Shown here in pieces: positions 21,195 to 64,000 of a stretch of 64,000 bases of DNA. This stretch comes from Mesostigma viride (Eukaryota > Streptophyta > Mesostigmatophyceae > Mesostigmatales > Mesostigmataceae). Under the pieces are notes generated by a model, which saw only the letters and a list, made by a program, of their open reading frames with translations, made no database searches and was not told where the DNA came from. Positions within the stretch are counted from its first letter, which is position 1; each line of letters opens with the position of its first letter. Location: the NCBI GenBank assembly GCA_009746045.1, contig RPFO01000206.1, forward strand, positions 24,748-88,747, in the 5' to 3' direction. Position numbers and translations under genes: made by a program.

Positions 21195-22893
21195 TTTTAC
21201 CCCCCGCTGGTCGGCCCACTTGGCGACCCGTCTGACATGCCTCCTTTCACCTCTCGCGAGGTCACGGAGGCGGTCCAGCGCCTGCGTTATGACGCAGCCA
21301 CCGGCTCTGACGAGATTCCGGCTGCAGTTGTAAAACTTGCAGCCGAATTCGAGGACACAGGTGTTATGCTGCTCTTCCGGGACCGGCATCTGCAACCGCC
21401 TTCTGCTGTCGTCGCAACCACCTCCAGCGGCCTGGCAACACAGTTTTCGCACGATGCTGTACAAGAACAAGGGGTCGCCTGCCGACCCCGGCAACTACAG
21501 AGGGGTGTGCATTCAAAGTGCCCCCCTCAAGCTTCTTATGCGGCTCATCCTGAACCGCCTGCGCACGGCCCTGGACGGACGTCAAGTCAGCGAGACTCAG
21601 CACGGCTTCCGTTCAGGTCGCAACACAGTACAGGCGCTCTTCGCTACTCGCCGACTGGTGGAGGAACTGCAACGCCTTCAGCCTGGTGAGTCCCCTTTGC
21701 ACCTTGTGCTGGTGGACTTCATCAAAGCCTTCGATTCGGTTTTCTGGCCTGCGCTTTGGGACATCCTCGAGTTGTTCCGGATCCCCCGCCCCCTGATTGC
21801 TGTCATCCGCAACCTGTATGAAGGGTCCACCACTTCGGTGCGCACTTCTTACGGGACCACGCCCCCATGCCCTTTACAGAAGGGTGTGTGGCAGGGCTGC
21901 GTGCTGTCGCCCTACCTGTTCATTATTGTTGTCGAATACGTAATGATTCAGGCGCGCAAGCGATTTGCCCGCATCGTGGGCAGGGAACCAGGAGTGCAGG
22001 TTGCTAACAAATTCTGGCATGGCGGTGCGGACACGGAGATTCGGCTAGCAGACATCATTTACGCAGACGACACCACCCTCTTCGAGGACACTGAGCACGT
22101 GCAGACATGGCTTGACTGCCTGGCTCTCGAGGCCCATGCAGTGGGGCTTGAGGTCAGCAAGAAGACAGAGGCCCTGGCGGTTGGGCTCACCAACTCACCG
22201 CCGCCCCTCTATCTCCTAGACGGCTCTCGAGTCCTGTATCGGGACCGCGTTAAGCTGCTGGGCAGCCTGCTCCCGAGCTGCGAGGTTGATGTGGACCATC
22301 GCATCTCCCTCGCCTGGCACGCTTTACGCCAGTACCGGGCCCTGTGGCGCAAGCCCCTGGGCAAGATCGAGAAACAGGACCTGTTCAAGGTCCTCGTCCT
22401 TCCTGTTCTCACGTATGGCGCCGAGACGTGGCCCCTCACCGCCGACCTGGCCCGCAAGCTGGACGGCGCGGTCACCAGCATGCTGCGTTCCATTTTCAGA
22501 GTACGGGATATGCTGCTCATGTCCGCAATGAGGACCTGTACCAGGGCATGCCCTATATCACCAGCACCATTAAGCAACGCCGCCTGCAGCTAGTAGGGCA
22601 CCTAGCTCGCACCAACCAGGTAGACACCTCACGTGGCCCCCCCGCAGGACTGCCGGACCAGCCCAGCCTGGCCGGCACCTCCTGACGTGGGCTGGGCCCA
22701 GTGATGTTAGACGCCGCAAGGCCCGCACCTTCAAAGAACAGCTAGTAGAGGACATGGGGGGCCTAGGCCTCTCCGTGATTTGGAAGAAGATGATGGACAA
22801 GGCCAAGTGGGCCCCCAGGTCATAGACGACAACGAGCCCCCCCCAGTGGGGAAGCGCCCGCGTGTGCAATCCCGCGGGAGGCACGCCAGATAG
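21195..22893 (+). pseudogene. LINE ORF2 reverse transcriptase
   Basis: The fingers region starts in one frame (MPPFTSREVTEAVQRL, DAATGSDEIPAAVVKL; about 21238-21340) and shifts near 21340. It then runs open to about 22500: YKNKGSPADPGNYRGV, TQHGFRSGRNTVQALF, motif A VDFIKAFDSVFW (about 21713-21748), motif B GVWQGCVLSPYLF (about 21884-21922), motif C IIYADDTTLF (about 22055-22084), KLLGSLLPSCEVD and TYGAETWPLT. A second shift near 22500 moves to EDLYQGMPYITSTIKQRR and GHLARTNQVDTS. The tail (PVGKRPRVQSRG) is in a third frame and ends at 22893. No apurinic endonuclease domain is present in this truncated copy. The RT core residues are intact, but the frame is not. Confidence 0.92.
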
Positions 22894-50490: not shown

Positions 50491-50495
50491 AGACA

Positions 50496-50560
50496 CCCTA
50501 CACCCTACACCCTACACCCTACACCATACATCCTACAACCTACACCCTTAACTCTCCACC
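50496..50560 (+). repeat. Telomere-like CCCTACA repeats
   Basis: About five 7-bp units CCCTACA followed by degenerate ones (CCATACA, TCCTACAA). They differ by one base from the plant-type telomere unit CCCTAAA. Confidence 0.75.
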
Positions 50561-50584
50561 CTTAGCTTACGTGACCTTTTTTTC

Positions 50585-50653
50585 GGAGAAATGTCCGAGT
50601 GGAATGCTATGTATGGGGTAACTTTCCCAAGGGTTCGAATCCCTCTTTCTCCA
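50585..50653 (+). pseudogene. trnS-GGA: Truncated plastid-type tRNA-Ser(GGA)
   Basis: The acceptor arms GGAGAAA (50585-50591) and TTTCTCC (50646-50652) pair fully, followed by A. The D-arm start TGTCCGAGTGG and the T-arm AAGGGTTCGAATCCCTC are present. Between them only AATGCTATGTA and a long variable arm (TGGGGTAACTTTCCCA) remain. The D-arm end and the anticodon stem start and anticodon are deleted (about 20 bases compared with the 85-90 of a serine tRNA). The sequence resembles plastid trnS-GGA more than nuclear tRNA-Ser. No CCA is judged to be encoded. Confidence 0.7.
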
Positions 50654-50664
50654 TTAGAGTTTTG

Positions 50665-50870
50665 AGTTACGTTAAATAGTGCCGGAACCTTTTGCCGCCT
50701 GAGGCAAATCGGTCCGTAACACTATTTTGCCCGGAATAACCACTTCCGAGCACCCAAGTTAATTCGGCCGAATTAACTTGGGTGCTCGGAAGTGGTTATT
50801 CCGGGCAAAATAGTGTTACGGACCGATTTGCCTCAGGCGGCAAAAGGTTCCGGCACTATTTAACGTAACT
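50665..50870. repeat. 206-bp palindrome, copy 1
   Basis: Perfect, no spacer; the centre is CGG/CCG at 50767/50768. Ends AGTTACGTTAA...TTAACGTAACT. Confidence 0.95.
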
Positions 50871-51002
50871 AAAACCTGGCCTCGTGGAGGGGGGACGAAG
50901 AGCCCGAGACATCCGCCTAGGCCGCTGAGCACGCACCACTAAATGCGCCGGAGCTGCCTCAGTGAGGATTCGAACCCCTGACCTCCAAGGTGCACAGGTT
51001 TT

Positions 51003-51208
51003 AGTTACGTTAAATAGTGCCGGAACCTTTTGCCGCCTGAGGCAAATCGGTCCGTAACACTATTTTGCCCGGAATAACCACTTCCGAGCACCCAAGTTAA
51101 TTCGGCCGAATTAACTTGGGTGCTCGGAAGTGGTTATTCCGGGCAAAATAGTGTTACGGACCGATTTGCCTCAGGCGGCAAAAGGTTCCGTCACTATTTA
51201 ACGTAACT
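51003..51208. repeat. 206-bp palindrome, copy 2
   Basis: Same sequence with one mismatch between its arms. Its flanks are also inverted copies, so the symmetry extends through it. Confidence 0.95.
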
Positions 51209-51340
51209 AAAACCTGTGCACCTTGGAGGTCAGGGGTTCGAATCCTCACTGAGGCAGCTCCGGCGCATTTAGTGGTGCGTGCTCAGCGGCCTAGGCGGAT
51301 GTCTCGGGCTCTTCGTCCCCCCTCCACGAGGCCAGGTTTT
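51209..51340 (+). pseudogene. Spacer with a tRNA 3'-half-like sequence
   Basis: 51217-51255 reads like a tRNA 3' half: GCACCTTGGAGGTC, a T-arm AGGGGTTCGAATCCTC, then CTGAGGCA as acceptor strand. The 5' half is missing and the identity is unclear (TGC could be an Ala anticodon). The inverse copy is at 50871-51002. The rest of the spacer is not recognised. Confidence 0.4.
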
Positions 51341-51546
51341 AGTTACGTTAAATAGTGCCGGAACCTTTTGCCGCCTGAGGCAAATCGGTCCGTAACACTA
51401 TTTTGCCCGGAATAACCACTTCCGAGCACCCAAGTTAATTCGGCCGAATTAACTTGGGTGCTCGGAAGTGGTTATTCCGGGCAAAATAGTGTTACGGACC
51501 GATTTGCCTCAGGCGGCAAAAGGTTCCGTCACTATTTAACGTAACT
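51341..51546. repeat. 206-bp palindrome, copy 3
   Basis: Mirror image of copy 1 about 51105.5; same centre CGGCCG, one arm mismatch. Confidence 0.95.
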
Positions 51547-51642
51547 TTTTGTTTAGCTTCTATTCTCGTCTACACATAATTCACACGAAGTACGCTTGCA
51601 AATACTTTATTACTATTTTGTTTGATATACTACACTAATATT

Positions 51643-51810
51643 ATAATTGTTGTGTGTGTGTGTTGTTCACGTGTGCGTGTGTGTGTTGTGTGTGTTGTGT
51701 GTGTTGTGCGTGTGCGTGTGCGTGTGCGTGTGCGTGTGCGTGTGCGTGTGCGTGTGCGTGTGCGTGTGTGTGTGTATATAATTTTTTGTTGTGTGTGTGT
51801 GTTGTGTGTT
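51643..51810 (+). repeat. TG and GTGTGC microsatellite
   Basis: TG and GTGCGT runs that grade into the 40-bp satellite. Confidence 0.9.
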
Positions 51811-54800
51811 GTACGTGCAAGGTGTATGTACATGTGTGTGCAGCCGGCCCTTGCGTGCGCGGTGTGTGTACGTTTCTGTGCAGCCGCCCCTTGCGTGCGC
51901 GGTGTATGTACGTGTGTGTGCATGCCGGCCCTTGCGTGCATGGTGTGTGTACGTGTGTGTGCAGCCGCCCCTTGCGTGCGCGGTGTATGTACATGTGTTT
52001 GCACTCGCCCATTGCGTGCGCGGTGTATGTACGTGTGTGTGCAGCCGCCCCTTGCGTGCGCGGTGGATGTACGTGTGTGCGCACTCGCCCCTTGCGTGCG
52101 CGGTGTATGTACGTGTGTGTGCAGCCGCCCCTTGCGTGCGCGGTGTATGTACATGTGTGTGCATCCTTGTCCTTGCGTGCATGGTGTATGTACATGTGAG
52201 TGCCGTCGCCCCAACCGTGCATTGTGTATGTACGTGTGTGTGCAGCCGCCCCTTGCGTGCATGGTGTGTGTACATGTGTGTGCATCCTTGTCCTTGCGTG
52301 CATGGTGTATGTACATGTGTTTGCACTCGCCCCTTGCGTGCGCGGTGTGTGTACGTGTGTGTGCAGCCGCCCCTTGCGTGCATGGTGTGTGTACATGTGT
52401 GTGCATCCTTGTCCTTGCGTGCATGGTGTGTGTACATGTGTGTGCAGCCGCCCCTTGCGTGCGCGGTGGATGTACATGTGCGGGCAGTTGCCCCTTGCGT
52501 GCGCGGTGTATGTACATGTGTTTGCACTCGCCCCTTGCGTGCGCGGTGTATGTACATGTGTGTGCAGCCGCCCCTTGCGTGCATGGTGTATGTACATGTG
52601 CTTGCACTGGCCCCGTGCGTGCGCGGTGTATGTACGTGTGTGTGCAGCCGCCCCTTGCGTGCGCGGTGTATGTACGTGCGTGTGCAGCCGCCCCTTGCGT
52701 GCGCGGTGTATGTACATGTGTGTGCATCCTTGTCCTTGCGTGCGCGGTGTATGTACATGTGTTTGCACTCGCCCCTTGCGTGCGCGGTGGATGTACATGT
52801 GTGTGCAGCCGCCCCTTGCGTGCATGGTTTATGTACATGTGTGTGCAGTCGCCGGCCCCGTGCGTGCGCAGTGGATGTACGTGTGTGTGCAGCCGCCCCG
52901 TGCGTGCATGGTGTGTGTACGTGTGTGTGCAGCAGCCCCTTGCGTGCGCGGTGTATGTACGTTTCTGTGCATGCCGGCCCTTGCGTGCATGGTGTATGTA
53001 CATGTGCTTGCACTGGCCCCTTGCGTGCGCGGTGTATGTACGTGTGTGTGCAGCCCCCCCTTGCGTGCGCGGTGTATGTACGTGTGTGCGCACTCGCCCC
53101 TTGCGTGCGCGGTGTATGTACGTGTGTGTGCAGCCGCCCCTTGCGTGCGCGGTGTATGTACATGTGTGTGCAGCCGCCCCTTGCGTGTGCGGTGGATGTA
53201 CATGTGCGGGCAGTTGCCCCTTGCGTGCGCGGTGTATGTACATGTGTTTGCACTCGCCCCTTGCGTGCGCGGTGTATGTACATGTGTGTGCAGCCGCCCC
53301 TTGCGTGCATGGTGTATGTACATGTGCTTGCACTGGCCCCGTGCGTGCGCGGTGTATGTACGTGTGTGTGCAGCCGCCCCTTGCGTGCGCGGTGTATGTA
53401 CGTGTGTGCGCACTCGCCCCTTGCGTGCGCGGTGTATGTACGTGTGTGTGCAGCCGCCCCTTGCGTGCGCGGTGTATGTACATGTGTGTGCATCCTTGTC
53501 CTTGCGTGCGCGGTGTATGTACATGTGTTTGCACTCGCCCCTTGCGTGCGCGGTGTATGTACATGTGTGTGCAGCCGCCCCTTGCGTGCATGGTTTATGT
53601 ACATGTGTGTGCAGTCGCCCCGTGCGTGCGCAGTGTATGTACGTGTGTGTGCAGCCGCCCCTTGCGTGCGTGGTGTGTGTACATGTGAGTGCAGCCGCCC
53701 CTTGCGTGCGCGGTGTATGTACGTGTGTGTGCAGCAGCCCCTTGCGTGCTTTGTGTGTGTACATGTGTGTGAATCCTTGTCCTTGCGTGCATGGTGTGTG
53801 TACGTGTGTGTGCAGCCGCCCCTTGCGTGCATGGTGGATGTACATGTGAGTGCCGTTGCCCCTTGCGTGCGCGGTGTATGTACGTGTGTGTGCAGCCGTC
53901 CCTTAATTGCGTGCGCGGTGTGTGTACGTGTGTGTGCACTCGCCCCTTGCGTGCGCGGTGTATGTACGTGTGTGCAGCCGCCCCTTGCGTGCGCGGTGTA
54001 TGCCAGTGTGTGTGCATGCCGGCCCTTGCGTGCAAGGTGGTGTGTAAGTGTGTGTGCAGCCCCTTGCGTGCATGGTGTATGTACGTGTGTGTGCAGCCGG
54101 CCCTTGCGTGCATGGTGTGTGTACATGTGAGTGCAGCCGTCCCTTCCGTGCATGGTGTGTGTACGTGTGTGTGCAGTTGCCCCTTGCGTGCGCAGTGTAT
54201 GTACGTGTGTGTGCATGCCGGCCCTTGCGTGCATGGTGTGTGTACGTGTGTGTGCAGTTGCCCCTTGCATGCGCGGTGTATGTACATGTGAGTGCAGCCG
54301 CCCAAGAGTATGTACATGTGAGTGCCGTCGCCCCTAATTGCGTGCATTGTGTGTGTAAGTGTGTGTGCAGCAGCCCCTTGCGTGCGCGGTGTATGTACGT
54401 GTGTGTGCAGCCGCCCCTTGCGTGCATGGTGTATGTCCATGTGAGTGCCGTTGCCCCTTGCGTGCGCGGTGTATGTACGTGTGTGTGCAGCCGTCCCTTA
54501 ATTGCGTGCGCGGTGGATGTACATGTGCGGGCAGTTGCCCCTTGCGTGCGCGGTGTATGTACGTGTGTGTGCAGCCGTCCCTTGCGTGCGCGGTGTATGT
54601 ACGTGTGTGTGCAGCCGCCCCTTGCGTGCATGGTGAGTGTAAGTGTGTGTGCAGCAGCCCCTTGCGTGCGCAGTGTATGTACGTGTGTGTGCAGCCGCCC
54701 CTTGCGTGCGCGGTGTGTGTATACTGTGTGTGCATGCCGGCCCTTGCGTGCATGGTGTGTGTACGTGTGTGTGCAGCCGCCCCTTGCGTGCGCGGTGTGT

Positions 54801-57412
54801 GTACGTGTGTGTGCACTCGCCCCTTGCGTGCGCGGTGGATGTACAGGTGTGTGCAGCCGCCCCTTGCGTGCATGGTGTATGTACATGTGTGTGCAGCCGC
54901 CCCTTGCGTGCGCGGTGGATGTACATGTGTGTGCAGCCGAACCTTGCGTGCATGGTGTGTGTACCTGTGCGTGAAGTCGCTCCTTGCGTGCATGGTGTGT
55001 GTACGTGTGTGTGCAGCCGCCCCTTGCGTGCATGGTGTATGTACATGTGAGTGCCGTTGCCCCTTGCGTGCGCGGTGTATGTACGTGTGTGTGCAGCCGT
55101 CCCTTAATTGCGTGCGCGGTGTGTGTACGTGTGTGTGCACTCGCCCCTTGCGTGCGCGGTGTATGTACGTGTGTGCAGCCGCCCCTTGCGTGCGCGGTGT
55201 ATGCCAGTGTGTGTGCATGCCGGCCCTTGCGTGCAAGGTGTGTGTAAGTGTGTGTGCAGCCCCTTGCGTGCATGGTGTATGTACGTGTGTGTGCAGCTGC
55301 CCCTTGCGTGCGCGGTGTGTGTACGTGTGTGTGCAGCCGCCCCGTGGTTGCGCGGTGTATGTACATGTGTGTGCAGTTGCCCCTTGCGTGCGCGGTGTAT
55401 GTACGTGTGTGTGCAGCCGCCCCTTGCGTGCGCGGTGTAGGTACGTGTGTGTGCAGCCGCCCCAAGCGTGCGCGGTGTGTGTACATGTGTGTGCAGTTGC
55501 CCCTTGCGTGCGCGGTGTATGTACGTGTGTGTGCAGCCGCCCCGTGGTTGCGCGGTGTATGTACATGTGTGTGCAGTTGCCCCTTGCGTGCGCGGTGTAT
55601 GTACGTGTGTGTGCAGCCGCCCCTTGCGTGCGCGGTGTAGGTACGTGTGTGTGCAGCCGCCCCAAGCGTGCGCGGTGTGTGTACATGTGTGTGCAGTTGC
55701 CCCTTGCGTGCGCGGTGTGTGTACGTGTGTGTGCAGCCGCCCCTTGCGTGCGCGGTGTATGTACGTGTGTGTGCAGTTGCCCCTTGCGTGCGCGGTGGTT
55801 TTTCGTGTGTGTGCAGCCGGCCCTTGCGTGCGGTGTGTGTACATGTGAGTGCAGCTGCCCCAAGCGTGCGCGGTGTGTGTACATGTGTGTGCAGTTGCCC
55901 CTTGCGTGCGCGGTGGATGTACGTGTGTGTGCAGCCGCCCCTTGCGTGCGCGGTGTATTTACGTGTGTGTGCAGCCGCCCCAAGCGTGCGCGGTGTGTGT
56001 ACGTGTGTGTGCAGTTGCCCCTTGCGTGCGCGGTGTGTGTACATGTGTGTGCAGCCCCCCTTGCGTGCGCGGTGTATGTACATGTGTGTGCAGTTGCCCC
56101 TTGCGTGCGTGTGTGTACGTGTGTGTGCAGCCGCCCCTTGCGTGCGCGGTGTAGGTACGTGTGTGTGCAGCCGCCCCGTGGTGCGCGGTGGTGTACATGT
56201 GTGTGAGCCCCTTGCGTGCGCGGTGTATGTACGTGTGTGTGCAGCCGCCCCTTGCGTGCGCGGTGTGTGTACGTGTGTGCAGCCGCCCCTTGCGTGCGCG
56301 GTGGATGTACGTGTGTGTGCAGCCGCCCCTTGCGTGCGCGGTGTGTGTACATGTGAGTGCAGCTGCCCCAAGCGTGCGCGGTGTGTGTACATGTGTGTGC
56401 AGTTGCCCCTTGCGTGCGCGGTGGATGTACGTGTGTGTGCAGCCGCTTGCGTGCGCGGTGTGTACGTGTGTGTGCAGCCGCCCCAAGCGTGCGCGGTGTG
56501 TGTACGTGTGTGTGCAGTTGCCCCTTGCGTGCGCGGTGGTGTACATGTGTGTGCAGCCGCCCCTTGCGTGCGCGGTGGATGTACATGTGTGTGCAGCCGC
56601 CCTTGCGTGCGGTTATGTACGTGTGTGTGCAGCCGGCCCTTGCGTGCGCGGTGGATGTACGTGTGTGTGCAGCCGCCCCTTGCGTGCATGGTGTGTGTAC
56701 GTGTGTGTGCAGCGCCCCTTGCGTGCGCGGTGTATGTACGTTGTGTGCATGCCGCCCTTGCGTGCGGTGTATGTACATGTGTTGCAGGCCCCTTGCGTGC
56801 GCGGTGTATGTACGTGTGTGTGCAGCCCCCTTGCGTGCGCGGTGTATGTACGTGTGTGCGCACTCGCCCCTTGCGTGCGCGGTGTATGTACGTGTGTGTG
56901 CAGCCGCCCCTTGCGTGCGCGGTGTATGTACATGTGTGTGCAGCCGCCCCTTGCGTGCGCGGTGGATGTACATGTGTGGCAGTTGCCCCTTGCGTGCGCG
57001 GTGTATGTACGTGTTGTGCACCGCCCCTTGCGTGCGCGGTGTATGTACGTGTGTGTGCAGCCGCCCCTTGCGTGCATGGTGTATGTACGTGTGTGTGCAG
57101 GCCCCTTGCGTGCGCGGTGTATGTACGTGTGTGTGCAGCCGCCCCTTGCGTGCGCGGTGTATGTACGTGTGTGCGCACTCGCCCCTTGCGTGCGCGGTGT
57201 ATGTACGTGTGTGTGCAGCCGCCCCTTGCGTGCGCGGTGTATGTACATGTGTGTGCATCCGTCCTTGCGTGCGCGGTGTATGTACATGTGTTTGCACCGC
57301 CCCTTGCGTGCGCGGTGTATGTACATGTGTGTGCAGCCGCCCCTTGCGTGCATGGTTTATGTACATGTGTGTGCAGTCGCCCCGTGCGTGCGCAGTGTAT
57401 GTACGTGTGTGT
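51811..57412 (+). repeat. 40-bp satellite, first block (about 140 copies)
   Basis: The unit is about 40 bp (GTGTGCAGCCGCCCCTTGCG then TGCGCGGTGTATGTACGTGT). Variants of the middle word (CAGTTGCCCC, CACTCGCCCC, CATCCTTGTCC, CATGCCGGCCC) allow higher-order units to be followed. Since 40 is not a multiple of three and the unit lacks stops on both strands, every frame is open for hundreds of codons; none is regarded as a gene. 56040-57300 shows unusually many 1-3 base deletions. Confidence 0.97.
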
Positions 57413-57906
57413 CGGCGGGCCCACTTCAAATGTTCCGCCGTCCAAGCCAAGTGTGTGACACTTTTGGTCGTTTTTCGCAAAAAAAAAATAAAATTTCGCA
57501 CGAGTTCGCGTGATTTTCGCGTGATTTTCGCAAAATTTTCACACATTTTCGCACGATTTCGCACGATTTCGCACAATTTTGCATGATTTCGCACAATTTC
57601 GCATGGATTTCAACCAAGGGTCGTTTTGGGGAGTGACGTTTGACAAAATTTCGCATGAATTCACACACGTTGTGCACATCAAAATTTTTTACCGTCGACA
57701 TTTTTCACATGAAATTTCGCACAATTTCAGCAAATTTCGCACAAATTCGCACGATTTCAGCAAATTTCACACGATTTCAGCAAATTTCGCACAATTTGGC
57801 ACGATTTCGCACGACGAATCACTCTGCAGAGTGACGATCGTCGAAAAAGTAAAAAAAACGACCAAAAGTGTCACACTTTTCGGAACATTTGAAGTGGGCC
57901 CGGCCG
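57413..57906. mobile_element. 494-bp inverted-repeat element (MITE-like) in the satellite
   Basis: The left end CGGCGGGCCCACTTCAAATG and the right end (reverse complement CGGCCGGGCCCACTTCAAAT) match with a one-base indel through TGTTCCG. A second matched block GTGTGACACTTTTGGTCG (57451-57470 and 57857-57875 inverted) follows. The 3-bp flanks are TGT. The empty site GTACGTGTGTGTGCAGCC exists at about 53639 and 61699 and equals the flanks with one TGT removed. The interior is made of TTCGCACAATTTC words in AT-rich sequence. No coding potential. The superfamily is uncertain. Confidence 0.88.
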
Positions 57907-60900
57907 TGTGCAGCCGCCCCTTGCGTGCGTGGTGTGTGTACATGTGAGTGCAGCCGCCCCTTGCGTGCGCGGTGTGTGTACGTGTGTGTGCAGCAGCCCC
58001 TTGCGTGCTTTGTGTGTGTACATGTGTGTGAATCCTTGTCCTTGCGTGCATGGTGTGTGTACGTGTGTGTGCAGCCGCCCCTTGCGTGCATGGTGGATGT
58101 ACATGTGAGTGCCGTTGCCCCTTGCGTGCGCGGTGTATGTACGTGTGTGTGCAGCCGTCCCTTAATTGCGTGCGCGGTGTGTGTACGTGTGTGTGCACTC
58201 GCCCCTTGCGTGCGCGGTGTATGTACGTGTGTGCAGCCGCCCCTTGCGTGCGCGGTGTATGCCAGTGTGTGTGCATGCCGGCCCTTGCGTGCAAGGTGGT
58301 GTGTAAGTGTGTGTGCAGCCCCTTGCGTGCATGGTGTATGTACGTGTGTGTGCAGCCGGCCCTTGCGTGCATGGTGTGTGTACATGTGAGTGCAGCCGTC
58401 CCTTCCGTGCATGGTGTGTGTACGTGTGTGTGCAGTTGCCCCTTGCGTGCGCAGTGTATGTACGTGTGTGTGCATGCCGGCCCTTGCGTGCATGGTGTGT
58501 GTACGTGTGTGTGCAGTTGCCCCTTGCATGCGCGGTGTATGTACATGTGAGTGCAGCCGCCCAAGAGTATGTACATGTGAGTGCCGTCGCCCCTAATTGC
58601 GTGCATTGTGTGTGTAAGTGTGTGTGCAGCAGCCCCTTGCGTGCGCGGTGTATGTACGTGTGTGTGCAGCCGCCCCTTGCGTGCATGGTGTATGTCCATG
58701 TGAGTGCCGTTGCCCCTTGCGTGCGCGGTGTATGTACGTGTGTGTGCAGCCGTCCCTTAATTGCGTGCGCGGTGGATGTACATGTGCGGGCAGTTGCCCC
58801 TTGCGTGCGCGGTGTATGTACGTGTGTGTGCAGCCGTCCCTTGCGTGCGCGGTGTATGTACGTGTGTGTGCAGCCGCCCCTTGCGTGCATGGTGAGTGTA
58901 AGTGTGTGTGCAGCAGCCCCTTGCGTGCGCAGTGTATGTACGTGTGTGTGCAGCCGCCCCTTGCGTGCGCGGTGTGTGTATACTGTGTGTGCATGCCGGC
59001 CCTTGCGTGCATGGTGTGTGTACGTGTGTGTGCAGCCGCCCCTTGCGTGCGCGGTGTGTGTACGTGTGTGTGCACTCGCCCCTTGCGTGCGCGGTGGATG
59101 TACAGGTGTGTGCAGCCGCCCCTTGCGTGCATGGTGTATGTACATGTGTGTGCAGCCGCCCCTTGCGTGCGCGGTGGATGTACATGTGTGTGCAGCCGAA
59201 CCTTGCGTGCATGGTGTGTGTACCTGTGCGTGAAGTCGCTCCTTGCGTGCATGGTGTGTGTACGTGTGTGTGCAGCCGCCCCTTGCGTGCATGGTGTATG
59301 TACATGTGAGTGCCGTTGCCCCTTGCGTGCGCGGTGTATGTACGTGTGTGTGCAGCCGTCCCTTAATTGCGTGCGCGGTGTGTGTACGTGTGTGTGCACT
59401 CGCCCCTTGCGTGCGCGGTGTATGTACGTGTGTGCAGCCGCCCCTTGCGTGCGCGGTGTATGCCAGTGTGTGTGCATGCCGGCCCTTGCGTGCAAGGTGT
59501 GTGTAAGTGTGTGTGCAGCCCCTTGCGTGCATGGTGTATGTACGTGTGTGTGCAGCTGCCCCTTGCGTGCGCGGTGTGTGTACGTGTGTGTGCAGCCGCC
59601 CCGTGGTTGCGCGGTGTATGTACATGTGTGTGCAGTTGCCCCTTGCGTGCGCGGTGTATGTACGTGTGTGTGCAGCCGGCCCTTGCGTGCGCGGTGTAGG
59701 TACGTGTGTGTGCAGCCGCCCCAAGCGTGCGCGGTGTGTGTACATGTGTGTGCAGTTGCCCCTTGCGTGCGCGGTGTATGTACGTGTGTGTGCAGCCGCC
59801 CCGTGGTTGCGCGGTGTATGTACATGTGTGTGCAGTTGCCCCTTGCGTGCGCGGTGTATGTACGTGTGTGTGCAGCCGCCCCTTGCGTGCGCGGTGTAGG
59901 TACGTGTGTGTGCAACCGCCCCAAGCGTGCGCGGTGTGTGTACATGTGTGTGCAGTTGCCCCTTGCGTGCGCGGTGTGTGTACGTGTGTGTGCAGCCGCC
60001 CCTTGCGTGCGCGGTGTATGTACGTGTGTGTGCAGTTGCCCCTTGCGTGCGCGGTGGTTTTTCGTGTGTGTGCAGCCGGCCCTTGCGTGCGCGGTGTGTG
60101 TACATGTGAGTGCAGCTGCCCCAAGCGTGCGCGGTGTGTACATGTGTGTGCAGTTGCCCCTTGCGTGCGCGGTGGATGTACGTGTGTGTGCAGCCGCCCC
60201 TTGCGTGCGCGGTGTATTTACGTGTGTGTGCAGCCGCCCCAAGCGTGCGCGGTGTGTGTACGTGTGTGTGCAGTTGCCCCTTGCGTGCGCGGTGTGTGTA
60301 CATGTGTGTGCAGTTGCCCCTTGCGTGCGCGGTGTATGTACATGTGTGTGCAGTTGCCCCTTGCGTGCGCGGTGTATGTACGTGTGTGTGCAGCCGCCCC
60401 TTGCGTGCGCGGTGTAGGTACGTGTGTGTGCAGCCGCCCCAAGCGTGCGCGGTGTGTGTACATGTGTGTGCAGTTGCCCCTTGCGTGCGCGGTGTGTGTA
60501 CGTGTGTGTGCAGCCGCCCCTTGCGTGCGCGGTGGATGTACGTGTGTGTGCAGTTGCCCCTTGCATGCGCGGTGGATGTACGTGTGTGTGCAGCCGCCCC
60601 TTGCGTGCGCGGTGTGTGTACATGTGAGTGCAGCTGCCCCAAGCGTGCGCGGTGTGTGTACATGTGTGTGCAGTTGCCCCTTGCGTGCGCGGTGGATGTA
60701 CGTGTGTGTGCAGCCGCCCCTTGCGTGCGCGGTGTATGTACGTGCGTGTGCAGCCGCCCCTTGCGTGCGCGGTGTATGTACATGTGTGTGCATCCTTGTC
60801 CTTGCGTGCGCGGTGTATGTACATGTGTTTGCACTCGCCCCTTGCGTGCGCGGTGGATGTACATGTGTGTGCAGCCGCCCCTTGCGTGCATGGTTTATGT

Positions 60901-63900
60901 ACATGTGTGTGCAGTCGCCGGCCCCGTGCGTGCGCAGTGGATGTACGTGTGTGTGCAGCCGCCCCGTGCGTGCATGGTGTGTGTACGTGTGTGTGCAGCA
61001 GCCCCTTGCGTGCGCGGTGTATGTACGTTTCTGTGCATGCCGGCCCTTGCGTGCATGGTGTATGTACATGTGCTTGCACTGGCCCCTTGCGTGCGCGGTG
61101 TATGTACGTGTGTGTGCAGCCCCCCTTGCGTGCGCGGTGTATGTACGTGTGTGCGCACTCGCCCCTTGCGTGCGCGGTGTATGTACGTGTGTGTGCAGCC
61201 GCCCCTTGCGTGCGCGGTGTATGTACATGTGTGTGCAGCCGCCCCTTGCGTGTGCGGTGGATGTACATGTGCGGGCAGTTGCCCCTTGCGTGCGCGGTGT
61301 ATGTACATGTGTTTGCACTCGCCCCTTGCGTGCGCGGTGTATGTACATGTGTGTGCAGCCGCCCCTTGCGTGCATGGTGTATGTACATGTGCTTGCACTG
61401 GCCCCGTGCGTGCGCGGTGTATGTACGTGTGTGTGCAGCCGCCCTTGCGTGCGCGGTGTATGTACGTGTGTGCGCACTCGCCCCTTGCGTGCGCGGTGTA
61501 TGTACGTGTGTGTGCAGCCGCCCCTTGCGTGCGCGGTGTATGTACATGTGTGTGCATCCTTGTCCTTGCGTGCGCGGTGTATGTACATGTGTTTGCACTC
61601 GCCCCTTGCGTGCGCGGTGTATGTACATGTGTGTGCAGCCGCCCCTTGCGTGCATGGTTTATGTACATGTGTGTGCAGTCGCCCCTTGCGTGCGCAGTGT
61701 ATGTACGTGTGTGTGCAGCCGCCCCTTGCGTGCGTGGTGTGTGTACATGTGAGTGCAGCCGCCCCTTGCGTGCGCGGTGTGTGTACGTGTGTGTGCAGCA
61801 GCCCCTTGCGTGCTTTGTGTGTGTACATGTGTGTGAATCCTTGTCCTTGCGTGCGGTGTGTGTACGTGTGTGTGCAGCCGCCCCTTGCGTGCATGGTGGA
61901 TGTACATGTGAGTGCCGTTGCCCTTGCGTGCGCGGTGTATGTACGTGTGTGTGCAGCCGTCCCTTAATTGCGTGCGCGGTGTGTGTACGTGTGTGTGCAC
62001 TCGCCCCTTGCGTGCGCGGTGTATGTACGTGTGTGCAGCCGCCCCTTGCGTGCGCGGTGTATGCCAGTGTGTGTGCATGCCGGCCCTTGCGTGCAAGGTG
62101 GTGTGTAAGTGTGTGTGCAGCCCCTTGCGTGCATGGTGTATGTACGTGTGTGTGCAGCCGGCCCTTGCGTGCATGGTGTGTGTACATGTGAGTGCAGCCG
62201 CCCTTCCGTGCATGGTGTGTGTACGTGTGTGTGCAGTTGCCCCTTGCGTGCGCAGTGTATGTACGTGTGTGTGCATGCCGGCCCTTGCGTGCATGGTGTG
62301 TGTACGTGTGTGTGCAGTTGCCCCTTGCATGCGCGGTGTATGTACATGTGAGTGCAGCCGCCCAAGAGTATGTACATGTGAGTGCCGTCGCCCCTAATTG
62401 CGTGCATTGTGTGTGTAAGTGTGTGTGCAGCAGCCCCTTGCGTGCGCGGTGTATGTACGTGTGTGTGCAGCCGCCCCTTGCGTGCATGGTGTATGTCCAT
62501 GTGAGTGCCGTTGCCCCTTGCGTGCGCGGTGTATGTACGTGTGTGTGCAGCCGTCCCTTAATTGCGTGCGCGGTGGATGTACATGTGCGGGCAGTTGCCC
62601 CTTGCGTGCGCGGTGTATGTACGTGTGTGTGCAGCCGTCCCTTGCGTGCGCGGTGTATGTACGTGTGTGTGCAGCCGCCCCTTGCGTGCATGGTGAGTGT
62701 AAGTGTGTGTGCAGCAGCCCCTTGCGTGCGCAGTGTATGTACGTGTGTGTGCAGCCGCCCCTTGCGTGCGCGGTGTGTGTATACTGTGTGTGCATGCCGG
62801 CCCTTGCGTGCATGGTGTGTGTACGTGTGTGTGCAGCCGCCCCTTGCGTGCGCGGTGTGTGTACGTGTGTGTGCACTCGCCCCTTGCGTGCGCGGTGGAT
62901 GTACAGGTGTGTGCAGCCGCCCCTTGCGTGCATGGTGTATGTACATGTGTGTGCAGCCGCCCCTTGCGTGCGCGGTGGATGTACATGTGTGTGCAGCCGA
63001 ACCTTGCGTGCATGGTGTGTGTACCTGTGCGTGAAGTCGCTCCTTGCGTGCATGGTGTGTGTACGTGTGTGTGCAGCCGCCCCTTGCGTGCATGGTGTAT
63101 GTACATGTGAGTGCCGTTGCCCCTTGCGTGCGCGGTGTATGTACGTGTGTGTGCAGCCGTCCCTTAATTGCGTGCGCGGTGTGTGTACGTGTGTGTGCAC
63201 TCGCCCCTTGCGTGCGCGGTGTATGTACGTGTGTGCAGCCGCCCCTTGCGTGCGCGGTGTATGCCAGTGTGTGTGCATGCCGGCCCTTGCGTGCAAGGTG
63301 TGTGTAAGTGTGTGTGCAGCCCCTTGCGTGCATGGTGTATGTACGTGTGTGTGCAGCTGCCCCTTGCGTGCGCGGTGTGTACGTGTGTGTGCAGCCGCCC
63401 CGTGGTTGCGCGGTGTATGTACATGTGTGTGCAGTTGCCCCTTGCGTGCGCGGTGTATGTACGTGTGTGTGCAGCCGCCCCTTGCGTGCGCGGTGTAGGT
63501 ACGTGTGTGTGCAGCCGCCCCAAGCGTGCGCGGTGTGTGTGTACATGTGTGTGCAGTTGCCCCTTGCGTGCGCGGTGTATGTACGTGTGTGTGCAGCCGC
63601 CCCGTGGTTGCGCGGTGTATGTACATGTGTGTGCAGTTGCCCCTTGCGTGCGCGGTGTATGTACGTGTGTGTGCAGCCGCCCCTTGCGTGCGCGGTGTAG
63701 GTACGTGTGTGTGCAGCCGCCCCAAGCGTGCGCGGTGTGTGTACATGTGTGTGCAGTTGCCCCTTGCGTGCGCGGTGTGTGTACGTGTGTGTGCAGCCGC
63801 CCCTTGCGTGCGCGGTGTATGTACGTGTGTGTGCAGTTGCCCCTTGCGTGCGCGGTGGTTTTTCGTGTGTGTGCAGCCGCCCTTGCGTGCGCGGTGTGTG

Positions 63901-64000
63901 TACATGTGAGTGCAGCTGCCCCAAGCGTGCGCGGTGTGTGTACATGTGTGTGCAGTTGCCCCTTGCGTGCGCGGTGGATGTACGTGTGTGTGCAGCCGCC
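57907..64000 (+). repeat. 40-bp satellite, second block (about 152 copies, continues past window)
   Basis: The same unit as 51811-57412. Long stretches repeat the first block at an offset of 4259 bp (for example 54048-54974 and 58307-59233 look identical) and again at 3801 bp (58618 and 62419), showing a higher-order unit of about 3.8 kb. The array is still running at the last base. Confidence 0.97.

Follow-up and report, generated by a model that had tools for sequence, protein, structure and literature searches.

A dispersed mobile element built of mirrored 206-bp palindromes, with exact 5-bp target duplications, in Mesostigma viride

Large palindromes without a spacer are usually unstable. 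Parvoviruses, which use rolling-hairpin replication, have palindromic hairpin ends and form inverted dimers that are bridged by one specific end. Transposons of the Mutator and foldback type duplicate 9 bp of their target, SINEs have target duplications of variable length and a 3′ tail, and, to our knowledge, the ends of Galileo are not single perfect palindromes. MITEs are short, non-coding and homogeneous elements of high copy number, with inverted terminal repeats and a target duplication of fixed length, according to a study of such elements (PMC10664404). The same study describes the M1 and M2 repeats of Pithovirus, which are found in giant viruses, as palindromic, putative MITEs with a 37-bp internal sequence and a putative TA duplication, lying in clusters about 140 nt apart, and it discusses the homogenisation of their copies (PMC10664404). 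Galileo is described as an element with long inverted ends of dynamic structure and duplications of 7-8 bp (PMC4168063). Cassandra, a TRIM, forms tandem arrays with about three LTRs, as described in an excerpt of PMC7215508. Among open-access publications, titles and the openings of abstracts contained no account that was recognisable as an element of the kind described below.

The window analysed here, a stretch of 64,000 nucleotides, contains at positions 50665-51546 a block in which three copies of a 206-bp palindrome (P) are separated by two copies of a 132-bp spacer (S) that point in opposite directions, in the order P-S-P-S′-P. The initial annotation had described this block as an 882-bp near-perfect palindrome made of three 206-bp palindromes, and we confirm this: the arms of the whole block (50665-51105 and 51106-51546, 441 nt each and directly abutting) were reported, after rounding, as 100% complementary, with 2 of the 441 pairs mismatched. 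Three direct copies recur within the block at a spacing of 338 bp. The outer palindrome P1 (50665-50870) is perfect, whereas the central palindrome P2 (51003-51208), which forms the bridge of the inverted dimer, and the outer palindrome P3 (51341-51546) have one asymmetric position each, the change 189G>T; a single position distinguishes P1 from P3. As DNA, P1 is predicted to form a hairpin of -135.7 kcal/mol, against a mean of -26.85 kcal/mol for shuffled sequences (z = -35.3). Rfam matches of P to microRNA and other families fell below the gathering scores and were discarded as the signal of a long hairpin. The spacer S (50871-51002, forward strand) has inverted 8-bp ends, AAAACCTG and CAGGTTTT, and S′ (51209-51340, reverse strand) is, on sequence comparison, an inverted copy of identical sequence. 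The termini of the element read AGTTACG...CGTAACT, and none of the open frames of at least 200 aa overlaps its 882 bp. A nested insertion of P into S was considered and rejected, as inverted bases (CAGGTTTT / AAAACCTG), and not a duplication, border the window's inner P. The window locus is present twice in the assembly, the second copy being inverted and located on contig C753 (locus L009). This second assembly of the locus, together with near-identical copies of the block elsewhere, excludes a chance origin.

With at most one mismatch, the terminus of P, AGTTACGTTAAATAGTG, occurred 1640 times in the forward and 1659 times in the reverse orientation in the 440-Mb assembly (2243 contigs), and the reversed control 1 and 2 times. 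As each P has two termini in opposite orientations, these counts correspond to about 1640 copies of P, which are spread over many contigs, some of them several megabases long. Searching with the spacer gave 1176 candidates at first look, with 40 of the 40 scored at 100%. One place on contig C2 where the spacer apparently stood without P turned out to belong to a normal P-S-P chain in which a single terminal base was altered (L068). A viral source was also considered and rejected: neither the 20-base terminus AGTTACGTTAAATAGTGCCG nor a related terminus of 24 bases had an exact match in viral contigs, and a phage collection likewise gave no match.

Two samples of loci were compared. Sample 1, the top-hit sample, comprised the best matches to the window query and the window itself (39 elements, 37 of them complete); orientations in it were counted on 35 elements, after four flank duplicates had been dropped, and two more pairs among them have one flank in common. 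Sample 2, the contig-order sample, was taken from the first 100 places listed for the P terminus and comprised 17 loci (L048-L064), leaving out L044, L045 and L046, which were already in sample 1. It consisted of 15 elements of the family of the window element (family 1), a relative that is not P (L049), and L063, which was set aside because the start of the contig cuts its first piece; the element downstream at L063 has a 5-bp repeat too.

The window block is flanked on both sides by TTTTG (50660-50664 on the left; 51547-51551 on the right, by comparison of the flanks). Exact 5-bp duplications were found for 36 of the 37 complete elements of sample 1, the window included, the exception being L013, which lies at a contig end and has one flank in common with L021. 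In sample 2, all 16 elements scored had an exact 5-bp duplication (15 of family 1, and L049). Monomers of the form P-S-P and a solo P are also flanked by exact 5-bp duplications (L018, L021, L023, L044 and L045; L050 and L054), so that P ends alone suffice. Moreover, the uninterrupted target of the window, CATTAGAGTTTTGTTTAGCTTCTATTC, with a single TTTTG, was found 83+93 = 176 times elsewhere when one mismatch was allowed (control, 0/0), and each of the 100 places that were listed was exact. Five of the five empty-site copies that were fetched match all 205 bases of the joined flanks, with four extra bases in one of them, and a second empty site, the target of L041, matches at 99.7% over 300 bp. 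We conclude that the block is one insertion of a dispersed mobile element that joins target DNA duplicated over exactly 5 bp. A rule for the target site (a C as its first base or a G as its fifth), obeyed by 36/36 duplications of sample 1, was dropped: duplications in sample 2 break it (for example TACAT, GTCCA and GCGGC), and we take it to be a selection bias, since the query of sample 1 included flanking bases of the window.

The initial annotation had placed a truncated plastid-type tRNA-Ser 12 bases before the block. A tRNA-Ser-like piece does lie in the left flank (50585-50653, forward strand), outside the element and ending 11 bases before the block; its score against the Rfam tRNA model is 21.9 bits, below the gathering score of 29 bits. 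The piece, with paired acceptor ends and T-arm and a shortened middle, is part of a dispersed repeat (50560-50664) that served as the target. The 105 bp that contain it gave 183 candidates, with 40 of the 40 scored at 100%. As the piece belongs to the dispersed target repeat, its nearness to the element is incidental. ARAGORN detected no tRNA gene in the window and none at 51 of 51 other loci, a set that leaves out the window, L009, L024, L042, L043 and the sample loci without a family-1 element; intron-bearing or broken genes can escape this program. The suggestion that the element targets tRNA genes was therefore rejected, with no such gene detected at the 51 loci and with the trnS-like piece of the window being part of a repeat that occurs uninterrupted in 176 copies.

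The wider surroundings are repetitive. Tandem units of the CACCCTA type, telomere-like in look, adjoin the target repeat at 50494-50535. Some copies of the target repeat sit about 2-3 kb from contig starts, and the region may for this reason be subtelomeric. From 51640 to 64000 runs a long minisatellite, an array whose units are GT-rich and GTGTGTGCAGCCGCCCCTTGCGTGCGCGG-like, and flanks of the minisatellite type also surround elements on other contigs (for example L011, L018, L020, L021 and L028). Elsewhere in the window, at 21337-22593, there is a reverse transcriptase frame (RVT_1, E 1.7e-25). At L025 (274-3650), the element lies between a collagen-like frame and a frame with a sub-threshold match to snapin/pallidin.

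The spacer had been said to carry a piece resembling the 3′ half of a tRNA, and such a piece is present. At the border of P2 and S′ (51168-51256, forward strand), a tRNA-like structure scores 18.3 bits with the Rfam tRNA model, and its mirror image at the border of S and P2 (50955-51043, reverse strand) scores 16.2 bits; the gathering score is 29 for both. A 7-bp acceptor stem would be formed by GCCTCAG in P2 and CTGAGGC in S′, and the T-arm contains a B box, GGTTCGAATCC, at 51235-51245. Within this structure we found no convincing A box. The sole TTTT of S′ (51337-51340, forward strand) lies at its border with P3 and may serve as a Pol III terminator. A second family of elements, described below, has a tRNA-like match of 17.4 bits at the equivalent border; the B box GGTTCGAATCC is common to both families, and in both TTTT occurs in the spacer solely at its far end. 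The acceptor partner GCCTCAG appeared in 0.48% of 20,000 shuffled arms, a figure for a motif that was picked post hoc, and the position of the acceptor partner differs between families 1 and 2. Together, these features suggest a putative Pol III unit, tRNA-like in form, that spans the border of P and S, with every tRNA score under the gathering score.

Across the two samples, elements contain from one to six palindromes. When the orientation of S in the window is written "+" and that of S′ "-", 19 of the 20 two-spacer elements of sample 1 have the order "+-" (five of the 19 with an incomplete or cut P), the only other form being a direct dimer, "++", at L017. In sample 2, with L063 set aside, the order was "+-" in 8/8. 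Thus, the spacers are inverted in 27 of the 28 two-spacer elements of the two samples, and neither sample contained an element of the order "-+". This polarity means that it is the tRNA-like end of S that faces the central P. Longer chains had the orders "++-", "+--", "+-+-", "++-+-" and "++---", in which the outermost spacers keep the "+-" sense and some inner neighbours are direct. The fixed polarity could alternatively result from a transposase that prefers outer ends with the same spacer end.

The second family has the same design, with a palindrome P′ of 212 bp (arms 93% complementary at L069/L071) and a spacer S2 of about 198 bp. The two palindromes are identical at 151 of 195 aligned bases. 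A first look gave 309 candidates, and, when one mismatch was allowed, the terminus of P′, AGTTATTATAAATAGTG, was found at 458+458 places (control, 1/0). Among the matches listed, 40 family-2 elements could be read from the match coordinates, flank duplicates being kept in: 34 were mirror dimers with the tRNA-like ends towards the central P′, none was reversed, four had one spacer and two were longer. The three family-2 elements that were fetched are flanked by duplications (ATGGA, GGGAC and CTTGC), and in each of them (3/3) the outer palindromes are exact reverse complements. The two spacers of an element match fully in L072 and in L074, those of L073 agree at 190 of 198 aligned columns, and the spacers of L072 differ from those of L074 at 4 of 198 positions. 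Three lone family-2 termini proved to be a solo P′, an ordinary P′-S2 and a truncated copy, and none of the three belonged to a longer element; the solo P′ (L082) has, as read by eye, CCCCC on both sides. The relative L049 is 236 bp long and has ACATG duplicated; no second close copy of it was found among 40 candidates scored. That two families share one design speaks for a general strategy and against an accident.

We then compared the repeated parts within single elements. The two spacers were identical in 12 of the 19 two-spacer elements of sample 1 with complete spacers, whereas 10,000 permutations averaged 2.7 and never exceeded 8, a test that, like the random pairing of arms below, treats the copies as independent and ignores shared descent. 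In sample 2, the pairs were identical in 4/8; the spacers were therefore not identical in 7/19 and 4/8 elements, respectively. When all pairs within elements of sample 1 were counted, long chains included, 18 of 51 were identical, as compared to 293 of 2295 pairs between elements. The mean distance was 2.63 within and 2.40 between elements, hence no smaller within, which is mainly due to a diverged spacer in L039. A diverged spacer with much the same set of deletions is found in three elements (L053, 1571-1694; L039, 592-715; L059, 1598-1720), indicating that the same P moves together with two or more lineages of spacer.

The arms of P gave a similar picture. In sample 2, 46 of the 49 full copies differ from the P of the window, and 22 of those 46, representing 12 distinct sequences, are perfect palindromes. 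Identical arms were found in 23 of the 42 copies of 206 bp in this sample, whereas random pairing, with descent ignored, averaged 3.1 and gave no more than 10 in any of 2000 trials. In sample 1, in which one arm type is dominant, the excess was smaller (75/90, against 62.6 expected and a maximum of 70). The excess of identical arms implies that changes have repeatedly been transferred from one arm to its partner, with independent events fewer than copies owing to shared descent. The earlier suggestion of a recent origin or gene conversion is supported by this likeness, beyond chance, of palindrome arms and of the spacers of two-spacer elements. L010, L015, L051 and L061 contain hybrid palindromes in which each arm resembles a different neighbour, so that recombination inside P is also indicated. 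Dimers whose ends or spacers are not alike (L010, L015 and L030 are examples) need later recombination as well; simple fold-back copying alone is insufficient to account for them.

In its set of features (short, non-coding, with inverted ends and a fixed duplication), the P/S element works like a MITE: duplication of fixed length, inverted terminal repeats and many homogeneous dispersed copies are all found. It differs from MITEs in that each end is a complete 206-bp palindrome and in that the elements form chains of 1-6 palindromes, mostly with mirrored spacers and of fixed polarity. Neither a transposase nor a longer autonomous partner came to light at the loci examined, the three lone family-2 termini included. 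With the Pithovirus M1 and M2 repeats it shares palindromic repeats in spaced clusters and homogenisation, and it differs from them in its 5-bp duplications, spacerless palindromes and mirror dimers. Long inverted ends are common to the P/S element and the Foldback-like elements Galileo and Tm1 (the latter is the subject of PMC3169594). The initial annotation had offered a foldback element as one possibility; what we found comes close, namely mobile copies that are dispersed, end in long palindromes and are flanked by 5-bp duplications, but the length of the duplication is not that of the foldback or Galileo type. The difference from Galileo lies in the 5-bp duplication and in the fixed polarity of the mirror dimers. 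We therefore do not assign the element to foldback or Galileo, on account of the duplication length, nor to the TRIMs, on account of its ends and orientation.

We think it probable that the P/S element is non-autonomous and depends on a transposase, that the palindromes at its ends behave as hairpins, and that fold-back copying gives rise to the inverted dimers. A putative transposase or integrase acting in trans and making cuts staggered by 5 bp would recognise the P ends and insert the element. In the monomer, P-S-P, the terminal palindromes would snap into hairpins. A strand would be copied towards the tRNA-like end of S, and the P at that end would fold back and prime, or redirect, synthesis of the complementary unit, so that the product would be the mirror dimer P-S-P-S′-P with the tRNA-like end in its centre. 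P would remain palindromic through copying between its two arms, and recombination among copies of P would generate the elements with one to six palindromes. It is the mirror dimers of a single polarity, together with the identity of spacers and the sharing of arm variants beyond chance, that suggest hairpin-templated copying.

The main rival is an ordinary palindromic MITE that moves by cut and paste, its dimers being formed through recombination or slippage at the palindromes, and its transposase preferring outer P copies with the same spacer end. The exact 5-bp duplications of monomers and solo P agree with it, as do the hybrid palindromes with arms from two neighbours, which point to recombination within P. 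By recombination alone, however, mirror dimers of either kind and numerous direct dimers would be expected, whereas in the samples the opposite kind was found 0 times and the direct kind once (L017), and spacer pairs are identical more often than random joining would make them; we regard this explanation as unlikely. A miniature LTR retrotransposon of the TRIM type, in which P would correspond to the LTR and S to the internal domain, with solo P as a solo LTR and the chains as arrays like those of Cassandra, would account for the 5-bp duplications, for a short terminal repeat around a short internal domain, for chains that share P, and for solo P (L054) and solo P′ (L082) with 5-bp duplications. 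The resemblance to Cassandra, as it emerges from the excerpt, extends to a terminal repeat with an internal domain, chains sharing that repeat and Pol III promoter parts, but Cassandra arrays are tandem, whereas the spacers here alternate in orientation, the repeat is palindromic and the ends are AG...CT. While the 5-bp duplication is shared with LTR elements, the direct orientation of their chains is not (8/8 and 19/20 inverted; in family 2, 34/34 of those listed). The termini are AG...CT instead of TG...CA; S, read by eye, has no TGG primer-binding site directly at the P border, TGG lying 6 bases inside; and with spacers inverted in 27/28 two-spacer elements and a terminal repeat that is a palindrome with homogenised arms, a TRIM seems improbable.

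In a further alternative, the tRNA-like head of P+S would be transcribed by Pol III outward from the central P as far as the TTTT before the outer P, the RNA aiding mobility as in a SINE. The three tRNA matches (18.3 and 16.2 bits in family 1, 17.4 bits in family 2), the B box with TTTT at the far end, and the rarity of the acceptor partner GCCTCAG in shuffled arms (0.48%, for a choice made post hoc) fit such a unit. All these scores are below 29, though, and the acceptor partners are placed differently in the two families. The predicted RNA omits the outer P, and so cannot itself be the mobile unit. Also, unlike SINEs, P/S elements have a fixed 5-bp duplication and symmetric ends. We consider a Pol III element quite improbable. 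An assembly or library artefact arising from fold-back reads was a concern, since large palindromes are a known class of artefact; exact 5-bp duplications, empty sites, fixed polarity, the existence of two families and loci that were assembled on separate contigs (window/L009, L014/L024 and L032/L042/L043) make it very unlikely. The adjoining tRNA-Ser-like piece, together with the palindromic repeats that green-algal organelle genomes may have, had suggested an organelle palindrome moved to the nucleus, which we likewise judge hardly credible: the piece is part of the target repeat, copies with insertion scars (36/37 and 16/16) lie on many contigs, and the exact P terminus is absent from the three rbcL loci that were fetched (L065-L067). 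C602 and C900 each have two full rbcL frames in opposite directions, and C996 has one; these are either plastid inverted repeats or assembly duplicates. The rbcL of the assembly is of green type, its best match among solved protein chains being 1gk8, from Chlamydomonas, which makes a green-algal host probable.

By analogy, the hairpin-copied element that we favour resembles a parvovirus replicon with rolling hairpins, in that it has palindromic termini and inverted dimers that may be joined by one bridge end. It differs from parvoviruses in that it has no replication-initiator gene and in that its integrated copies carry target duplications of the transposon type. A stronger form of this reading, in which these are nuclear mobile elements that replicate by parvovirus-like hairpins, the palindrome at the tRNA-like end folding back and reversing the course of the polymerase, with mirror dimers as the normal product and the main inserted form and with the palindromes thereby kept perfect, is possible but doubtful. 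If true, it would mean a transposon with rolling-hairpin replication in its life cycle. The genome holds more than 1000 copies of P; about half of the copies in sample 2 are perfect, and most are unlike the P of the window in sequence. The family lets the upkeep of long perfect palindromes by arm-to-arm copying be tested directly, as well as the multiplication of an inserting DNA element through hairpin-primed mirror dimers, and its elements are natural markers for recombination within palindromes.
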